64,000 nucleotides of DNA, from contig JALHNS010000002.1 of NCBI GenBank assembly GCA_022843445.1, positions 1 to 64,000 of the forward strand. The letters are read 5' to 3'. The stretch's first letter is position 1; each line of letters opens with the position of its first letter. A model generated the notes under the pieces. It ran no database searches. It was not told the origin of the DNA and worked only from the letters and a program-made list of their open reading frames with translations. Positions 16,315 to 58,697 of the stretch are shown in pieces. Source of the stretch: Gemmata sp. (GTDB lineage Bacteria; Planctomycetota; Planctomycetia; Gemmatales; Gemmataceae). The translations under genes and the position numbers were made by a program.

Positions 16315-16640
16315 CTATTTGGTGGCGCAACAGCGCGCCGACCAAAGTGGTTTTCGTGCGCGCGTGCGAACTGGTCGCGGCTCGCGAACGAGCCGCGAAC
16401 GCGAGTGAGCGGCACCCGCTGTAGTCCGAGAACCCAACGTCACGCTCACCGCGACGGCACTCGGCCGGATCGCGGTAGCGACGTTTGAATAGCCCCAACT
16501 CGACCTCGCACTCCGAACTGCCGATTTCGCTTGTTTTTCAAGCATCCTCGCGCGGCGCTCCGATCTCCCGCTTCCATCCGTTGACTTTTTGCCCGCCGCG
16601 GGGAATAATCTGGGTGTTGTTCTCACGACCACGGAGCGCA

Positions 16641-17060
16641 ATGCGCGCAGCGATTCATTTCGGGTTGGCGGTGGCACTTGTTCTCGCGCCGGCCCTTTGC
16701 TGCTGCACCGTGCGGATGGCGCACGCCAAGCCCGCCGCTCCGTCATGTTGCGCGAAAGTCGAAGTCGCGCCCGTTTCGCACTCCTGCTGCGCGACCAAGC
16801 CCCCTGCCCCGCTTGAACCGAAGCCGAACGCGCCGCGCCCGGCACCGGAAGCGTGTGCCTGCTGCGCCGAGCGCCCCCCTGCCGCACCGGTGGAAGCCGC
16901 GCCGAGCCTCGCCGCGGCCGAACCGACCGGCGAACTGGTCCCGCTCGCGGTTCACATTCCCGCGACCCTCGAACTCACTCCGGCGCGCGACGCGCGCGCC
17001 GGCTCGAGTGCGGATACCAAATCCGAATCCCTCTTCGCGCGCCACGTTCTGCGCTGTTAG
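16641..17060 (+). CDS. Secreted Cys-Cys-rich protein
   Basis: MRAAIHFGLAVALVLAPALCCC... with SCC/SCC/ACC motifs; 139 aa. Confidence 0.6.
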   Translation: MRAAIHFGLAVALVLAPALCCCTVRMAHAKPAAPSCCAKVEVAPVSHSCCATKPPAPLEPKPNAPRPAPEACACCAERPPAAPVEAAPSLAAAEPTGELVPLAVHIPATLELTPARDARAGSSADTKSESLFARHVLRC

Positions 17061-17170
17061 TCTGCGCCGGTTCCCCGTGTTCCTCGTAATTCGCTTGCTA
17101 TTCTTCACCTGCGCCGTTATGTATGGCGCTGAACGCTCATTCATTCAACACCAACTCAAGGAACCTTGCC

Positions 17171-17584
17171 ATGAAACTGTTTGCGATCATCACCGCGGGC
17201 GTGCTCGCGGCGGCCGGCGGCGTCTACTACTTCCAATCCGAAGGCTGCCCGTTCAGCGGCGGCGGCAAGACCGGCTGCTCCGCACCGATGGCGAGCGCGG
17301 AAGTGGCGAGCGCGTCGGACTGCTGCGCCGTGAAGGAAGACTGCTGCGCGACGGTCGAACCGTGCTGCGCCAGCGCGAAGGTGACCAAGGCCACGGTGTG
17401 CTGCAACCCGGACAACAGCTGCTGCGGCCCGACCGCGGAGTGCTGCGCTCTGGGCCTCGCGTGCTGCCTCGAAGCGAAGGCCGTCGCGACCGCGAAGGTG
17501 ACGAAGGCAGACTGCTGCGCGATCGGGGCCCAGTGCTGCGCCGTCGGCGCGGCCTGCTGCCTCGGCGCGACCGCCGCGAAGTAA
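17171..17584 (+). CDS. Exported protein with 10 Cys-Cys pairs, mostly CC-x5-CC
   Basis: MKLFAIITAGVLAAAGG signal; DCCAVKEDCCATVEPCC...VCCNPDNSCCGPTAECCALGLACC...DCCAIGAQCCAVGAACC; followed by a canonical terminator. Confidence 0.75.
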   Translation: MKLFAIITAGVLAAAGGVYYFQSEGCPFSGGGKTGCSAPMASAEVASASDCCAVKEDCCATVEPCCASAKVTKATVCCNPDNSCCGPTAECCALGLACCLEAKAVATAKVTKADCCAIGAQCCAVGAACCLGATAAK

Positions 17585-17602
17585 CCTGACGTGCAACCGA
17601 CG

Positions 17603-17633
17603 GCCGGCGCGCCAACAGGCGCGCCGGCTTTTT
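17603..17633 (+). terminator. Rho-independent terminator
   Basis: gccggcgcgcc-aaca-ggcgcgccggc followed by ttttt. Confidence 0.85.
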
Positions 17634-17641
17634 GCGTTTAG

Positions 17642-17703
17642 CGTGGTACGACGCTCCGCGTCGTTCTACTCCCCCCGAATGCGACGCGGAGCGTCGCACC
17701 ACG
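17642..17703. repeat. REP-like family 2 inverted pair (cgacgcggagcgtcg)
   Basis: 22-bp inverted repeat with 1 mismatch, 18-nt loop; related palindrome at 58628. Confidence 0.85.
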
Positions 17704-17708
17704 ATCCA

Positions 17709-18392
17709 TTAGGCCGGGTCCGGCACCACCGTCACGTCCGCGCTCGTGCGCTCGTACACCGCGCGCCAGACGCCGCCGCCCGCCGCCCGCGCCTTGCGCT
17801 CGAAGTTCGTCGCGAACCCGGCGTCGGTGCGGGGCGCGGCGCGGTCGGTTTCCTCCGGGCGCTCGGAATACGCCGGCATCGCCCGCGCGATCGCGGTCAT
17901 CACGCCGAAGTACTCTTCCACGTCCGACGCGATCAGCAACCGCCCGCCGGTCGGCAAAGCGCGCGCGATATCTGCTGCGAACTCCTGGGTGAACACGCGG
18001 CGCTTGCGGTGCCGCTTCTTCCACCACGGGTCCGGGAAGTACACGTGCACCGCTTGCACGCTGCCGGGCGCGACGTGCAAGCGGAACAGCGCCTTCGCGT
18101 CTGCGCACGCGGTGCGCACGTTCGCCAACTCGCGAATCGCGTACCGGGTGGTGGCGTACAGTTGGTACTTGCGTACGATCTCGATGCCGTAGAAGTTCGT
18201 GTCCGGGCGCGCGAGGGCCGCGTTCAGCAAGAACAGCCCCTTCCCCGTGCCCACTTCCACTTCCACCGGGTTCGCGTTGCCGAACACGGCGGCCCAGTCG
18301 ATGCGCACCGGCGGTTCGCCCTCGCGGGGCGCGGGCGGCTCGTACACCCACGGCGCGAGCTGCTCGCGGCTCAGCCGCTGTTCCTTACGCAC
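17709..18392 (-). CDS. trmB: tRNA (guanine-N7-)-methyltransferase
   Basis: VEVEVGTGKGLFLLNAALARPDTNFYGIEI; HVYFPDPWWKKRHRKRR. Confidence 0.93.
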   Translation of the reverse strand: MRKEQRLSREQLAPWVYEPPAPREGEPPVRIDWAAVFGNANPVEVEVGTGKGLFLLNAALARPDTNFYGIEIVRKYQLYATTRYAIRELANVRTACADAKALFRLHVAPGSVQAVHVYFPDPWWKKRHRKRRVFTQEFAADIARALPTGGRLLIASDVEEYFGVMTAIARAMPAYSERPEETDRAAPRTDAGFATNFERKARAAGGGVWRAVYERTSADVTVVPDPA

Positions 18393-22506: not shown

Positions 22507-22580
22507 GTGCCCGTAGCTCAACTGGATAGAGCGTCGGCCTCCGGAGCCGAAGGTTACAGGTTCAACTCCTGTCGGGCATA
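22507..22580 (+). tRNA. tRNA-Arg (anticodon CCG)
   Basis: Cloverleaf read by eye: acceptor gtgcccg/cgggcat, D-arm gctcaactggatagagc, anticodon loop ctCCGga, T-arm acagg-ttcaact-cctgt. Confidence 0.9.
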
Positions 22581-22662
22581 CTGGAAAAACAAGGGTTCGC
22601 GACGACGCCGACGCGACCCGCCCTTCTTGTCCGCGATCCTTGTCCGCGAATCGGTAGAAAAG

Positions 22663-58627: not shown

Positions 58628-58673
58628 CGACGCGGAGCGTCGTGCCACTATAGTGGCACGACGCTCCGCGTCG
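58628..58673. repeat. 46-bp perfect palindrome (REP-like family 2)
   Basis: cgacgcggagcgtcgtgccacta|tagtggcacgacgctccgcgtcg. Confidence 0.95.
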
Positions 58674-58697
58674 CATGCGCCACTCAGACGACCGCAG

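Follow-up and report, generated by a model that had tools for sequence, protein, structure and literature searches.

Anatomy of the locus

The locus carries two small genes, which we call A and B, on the forward strand of the window (the whole 64,000-nucleotide stretch of Gemmata sp. DNA analysed here). Gene B codes for a protein with 22 Cys among 137 residues, and its translation bears out what an earlier note, made from the sequence alone, had described: a hydrophobic N-terminal segment and ten CC doublets that mostly keep a 7-residue period. The doublets begin at residues 51, 58 and 65, at 77, 84, 91 and 98, and at 115, 122 and 129, forming blocks of three, four and three, with spacings of 7, 7, 12, 7, 7, 7, 17, 7 and 7 (seven of nine equal to 7, or CC-x5-CC). 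The similar AKVTKA linkers described between the blocks are also present, in two copies at residues 69–74 and 108–113. In 20,000 shuffles of the residues of B the mean number of CC was 2.9 and the maximum 8, with none reaching 10, and at most two spacings of 7 were obtained compared to the seven observed. Past residue 22 there is no H, W or Y and only one F, and being small, Cys-rich and poor in aromatics and His, B has the sequence character of a metallothionein in the functional sense. The N-terminus is likely a signal peptide or an uncleaved anchor, and it shows no clear AxA site. An AlphaFold2 model built on an alignment of eight sequences had a mean pLDDT of 40.8 and no confident helices, which is too poor for a fold search or to judge whether B could be a four-helix bundle. 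Such low confidence would be expected if folding depended on metal, though a thin alignment can yield the same.

Gene A, which the earlier note did not mention, appears to be exported and is CC-rich like B, and the two together make up one conserved unit. Its product has an LCCC ending the hydrophobic segment, followed by SCC, SCC, CACC and the C-terminus SLFARHVLRC, and among 12 orthologues the CCC, C-x-C and RHV-x-x-C motifs are invariant. A TTGAC is found at a comparable short distance upstream of A in all 13 aligned loci. The canonical terminator reported after B was confirmed as a 12-pair stem with a T run (folding z-score −3.9), and it is the sole terminator-like site found in the unit. 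Since the promoter lies before A and this site after B, the two genes likely share a single transcript. The unit is flanked by a trmB-like gene and a sugar-isomerase-like gene, with no adjacent efflux operon.

Other elements were observed in the same DNA. A palindromic element, TGCGACGC-NNN-GCGTCG, is found in two copies just past the terminator (17640–17706) and again at 58659–58675, and is possibly a dispersed repeat. The only tRNA found by ARAGORN in the window is a tRNA-Arg (CCG) at 22507–22581.

Table 1. Features of the A-B unit in the window and of related loci in other genomes (locus handle before the coordinates).
Feature	Position	Strand	Description or basis
Sigma-70-like promoter of A-B unit	16581..16609	+	TTGACT-N17-AATAAT; 10/12 consensus matches
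Gene A	16641..17060	+	139-aa putatively exported CC-rich ORF, 110 nt upstream of B, same strand
RBS-like (Shine-Dalgarno-like) site of B	17158..17163	+	AAGGAA; sequence
Gene B	17171..17584	+	137-aa putatively exported CC-x5-CC array protein; translation, orthologues, dN/dS
Hydrophobic N-terminus of B	17171..17233	+	MKLFAIITAGVLAAAGGVYYF; kept within genus
CC triad 1 of B	17321..17368	+	CCAVKEDCCATVEPCC
CC tetrad of B	17399..17467	+	CCNPDNSCCGPTAECCALGLACC
CC triad 3 of B	17513..17560	+	CCAIGAQCCAVGAACC
Intrinsic terminator of A-B unit	17602..17629	+	12-pair stem, then T run
trmB-like gene	17709..18392	-	tRNA m7G methyltransferase by sequence; convergent, conserved downstream neighbour; landmark outside the system
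DUF326/Csp-like protein, putatively exported, between A and trmB	L112:6966-7463	-	PF03860
DUF326/Csp-like protein, putatively exported, between A and trmB	L113:8440-8877	+	PF03860
Array-HMA fusion	L126:2173-2793		PF00403, efflux operon
Array-HMA fusion	L165:5885-6643		PF00403, efflux operon
Array-HMA fusion	L180:1929-2729		PF00403, efflux operon

Conservation within Gemmata and replacement of B

Orthologues of B were found in most of 19 Gemmata genomes, and the order A-B-trmB is kept across the genus while the genes upstream of A vary. For close pairs dN/dS was 0.13–0.40 for B and 0.18–0.34 for A, which indicates that both genes are under purifying selection in the genus. The number of CC doublets in the orthologues ranges from 2 to 11. 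The lowest count is that of genome G017, where the array appears decayed to two CC and a profile search did not detect A (this genome is only 68% complete), and in G001 and G002 the B orthologues have SS in place of CC. The commonest spacing is again 7 among these orthologues, which were found by similarity.

A also adjoins trmB in G007, G008, G011, G014 and G090, and the position between them is filled in different ways. A CC array is found there in G007, and G014 and G090 have a different protein with CC-rich repeats. In G008 and G011 the occupant is putatively exported and carries DUF326 repeats (PF03860, E 2.3e-7 and 2.2e-5). DUF326 is the Pfam signature for copper storage proteins, or Csps (PMC6769254), and the G011 protein matches the PDB structures of Csp3 (5fig, E 3.7e-5) and Csp1 (5fjd, E 0.009). 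A DNA pattern scan for CC triads listed no real-looking array elsewhere in G008 or G011. We read this as a copper-storage-like protein having replaced B in one conserved slot.

In some partners of A (L111:7146-7601, L114:8504-9022 and B of G010, G015 and G018), CxxCxxxCxxCC modules occur beside CC triads. These modules look like Csp helices and could be an intermediate between the array and Csp, although no profile match backs this. Actual Csp-like helices within the B relatives of G010, G015 and G018 were considered and dropped, with no DUF326 match to support them.

Spread of CC arrays and association with A-type genes

The DNA pattern for CC-x5-CC-x5-CC was found in 71 of 97 Gemmataceae genomes, a count that includes chance hits, as control counts of the scan showed that TGCTGC repeats arise by chance in these genomes. 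The array family looks common in Gemmataceae. A phylum-wide profile search and a CC-x-PG pattern beyond Gemmataceae gave mostly background, and three real-looking arrays were kept, L215, L216 and L217, which belong to Planctomycetia outside Gemmataceae. A match in G324 (L218) was discarded because no array is present. Among the array proteins the common x5 spacer is [AFEY]-[PA]-G-[AS]-[AP], with the turn-like xPGxx in 54 of 197 spacers; the tally of doublet spacings for this set is biased, as the arrays were mostly gathered by the 7-7 pattern. Most of these proteins have no His or Trp, and 18 of 43 have an odd number of Cys.

We then searched the DNA preceding each array for a co-oriented A-type gene, defined strictly as a hydrophobic segment followed by CC, at least six Cys, and a Cys among the last three residues. 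It was found for 20 of 26 arrays and for 46 of 1602 control ORFs from the same loci, many of the 46 lying in the shadow of a true A. This hydropathy rule was used in place of a first regular expression that was over-strict (13 of 26 arrays), and for three arrays fused to an HMA domain (see below) the search was extended as far as the beginning of the operon. Of the remaining arrays, L160, L161, L216 and L217 have a similar upstream gene when examined by eye, and L164 and L215 have no A-like gene by either approach. The unit in the window itself has the full arrangement of a putatively exported array with an A-type gene upstream.

Efflux operons in distant relatives

A profile of A identified distant copies across Gemmataceae. 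At least ten of these, most of those fetched, stand at the head of heavy-metal efflux operons of the CusB/CusA type. Besides A, these operons encode an adaptor of the CzcB/CusB type (TIGR01730, 1.1e-61), a CusA/CzcA pump (TIGR00914, 4.7e-184) and two small proteins with Cys motifs. Several have TolC nearby and several a multicopper oxidase (TIGR01480, 7.4e-48, under its cut-off). The first small protein has HGHKPGAHGG and a weak TRASH-like CCxPC motif, and the second a CCxGC motif (CVCCRGC). As an observation in its own right, these two proteins recur near efflux genes (L118:8574-9620, L118:9723-10142 and equivalents) and fall under Pfam cut-offs.

L126, L165 and L180 each encode a fusion protein in which an HMA domain (PF00403, E 3.6e-17 to 1.1e-14) follows the CC array at the C-terminal end, and the gene for this fusion sits between A and CusBA, inside the efflux operon. 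These relatives are therefore encoded in an efflux operon, whereas the B copy in the window is not. The L180 pump lacks the methionine triad of CusA and has N, V and H at the aligned positions, which we take to be M573, M623 and M672; a metal other than Cu(I) may therefore be involved.

Comparison with known families

Single-protein scans of A and B against Pfam and NCBIfam gave no model matches, the listed hits to DUF5942 (E 1.1), a galaxin repeat (E 1.8) and GltJ (E 0.51) being due to chance. No metallothionein model in Pfam or NCBIfam matched B or its aligned relatives, and neither did DUF326/Csp. The same was true of any wall-protein or YTV domain in Pfam, which may lack a YTV model. A PDB search with the single B sequence gave no match, and the top match of a B profile was to granulins at a non-significant E of 0.17. 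Nothing matching B turned up in the literature searched, which covered metallothioneins exported by bacteria, proteins with CC motifs and metal binding in planctomycetes. The earlier note had named two findings that would count against its proposal, membership in a characterised family of known function, or a lack of both expression and conservation in related genomes; no characterised family matches, and B is conserved. By these searches B belongs to a previously unmodelled planctomycete family.

Bacterial metallothioneins (SmtA/BmtA, MymT) resemble B in being small, Cys-rich and almost free of aromatics and His, and B is predicted to share with them the binding of several metals through thiolates and, in view of its low pLDDT, the lack of a stable apo fold. 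However, known bacterial metallothioneins are treated as cytosolic (PMC7558416) and lack the CC-x5-CC period, whereas B carries a putative export segment and comes with A as its dedicated partner. Csp1 represents an exported thiol-rich Cu(I) store (PMC7558416), and two Gemmata genomes have a Csp-like protein in the very slot of B, but Csps (Csp1, Csp3; DUF326) are four-helix bundles with single spaced Cys, while B has doublets and no DUF326, and many of its relatives have a Pro-Gly in the x5 spacer that is ill-suited to a continuous helix. HMA metallochaperones (PF00403) are joined to the array on one chain in three relatives, though not in the window B. CusF, the periplasmic Cu/Ag chaperone of CusCBA and a five-stranded beta-barrel (PMC7558416), shares with the relatives of B its small size, its export and a gene that accompanies a CusA/CusB-type pump; no sequence relation to B was found. 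YTV and chlamydial wall proteins and granulins are exported and Cys-rich like B, granulins also having CC doublets, but there is no significant sequence match and the context of the B family is metal efflux. By the sequence tests run, B would work like a metallothionein or an exported Csp while being a member of neither.

Proposed function and alternatives

We propose, with a probability of roughly 0.7, that B works with A as an exported thiolate sponge of metallothionein-like character, probably tethered to the membrane, which takes up a soft metal, Cu(I) being the likeliest. The chain is short, rich in Ala, Gly and Pro and nearly free of aromatics, and each CC-x5-CC triad would offer six thiols. 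With these the protein would coordinate several ions of a soft metal, again most probably Cu(I), with Ag(I), Zn(II) and Cd(II) also possible. B would buffer the metal before it damages the envelope or is handed over to an efflux pump. A would be its exported partner, expected at the outer membrane face given the CCC beside its hydrophobic segment and the H and C near its C-terminus, and may deliver metal to B or receive it. We infer the export route, metal identity, stoichiometry, A-B interaction, role of A and hand-over to the pump. The earlier note had suggested a metallothionein-like or copper/zinc-binding protein, and this part is strengthened by the HMA fusions, the A-led CusA/CusB operons and the Csp-like replacement. 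The HMA fusion and the Csp-like replacement point to metal independently of one another, and the latter points to copper; provided that B does bind metal, we lean slightly towards Cu(I).

Several points count against the metal-sponge reading: the extracytoplasmic space is usually oxidising, granulins (the top, though non-significant, profile match) are disulfide-bonded, the array is labile, as seen in G017, G001 and G002, and the window unit has no efflux operon beside it. B could instead be a structural envelope protein in which the doublets form a ladder of inter- or intramolecular disulfides and metal binding is incidental, similar to granulins or the cysteine-rich proteins found in planctomycete and chlamydial walls. 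This corresponds to the multiply disulfide-bonded option of the earlier note, which we keep as the main rival and regard as unlikely. It would suit an exported Cys-rich protein in a phylum with cysteine-rich YTV proteins in its wall preparations (PMC8567305), the weak granulin match, and the frequent xPGxx turn, which fits stacked hairpins. However, the odd Cys counts in the family argue against a fully intramolecular disulfide fold, no wall-protein model in Pfam matched, and both the HMA fusions within an efflux-operon context and the exchange for a Csp-like protein in G008 and G011 speak for metal handling.

Vicinal Cys pairs can bind As(III) and Hg(II), so B might also be a thiol redox or scavenging protein for these or for oxidants as opposed to a copper buffer, and the departure of the L180 pump from CusA at the Met triad would agree with this. 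We give this little credence, as the HMA fusion, the CusB/CusA-type pump, the multicopper oxidase and the Csp-like protein indicate metal export and copper storage, and neither ars nor mer genes came up in passing at these loci. A further reading, in which repetitive GC-rich TGCTGC sequence has expanded into a low-complexity array that is neutral or in decay, is very improbable. The variable doublet number among orthologues and the chance occurrence of TGCTGC repeats would fit it, but the dN/dS values are low, CC pairs are retained between close species, the promoter, A and synteny are conserved, and arrays recur with an A-type partner in other genera.

Extending the metal-sponge reading, we tentatively consider a modular envelope store in planctomycetes, in which A serves as a conserved exported adaptor for an exchangeable thiol cartridge. 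This cartridge would keep Cu(I) away from the cytoplasm, on its outer side, and supply an RND pump. The cartridge could be a CC-x5-CC array, another CC-rich repeat protein, an array-HMA fusion or a Csp-like bundle. It is possible, at a similarly tentative level, that this store amounts to an extracytoplasmic metallothionein system, of which we found no bacterial description in the literature searched.

If the proposed function is correct, B would give bacteria a second way, beside Csp1, of storing metal on thiols outside the cytoplasm. Its family would be exported and metallothionein-like, with a partner gene of its own, ties to efflux pumps and a genomic slot in which a Csp-like protein can take its place, and it would raise the question of how the planctomycete envelope keeps free Cys pairs reduced or metal-loaded.
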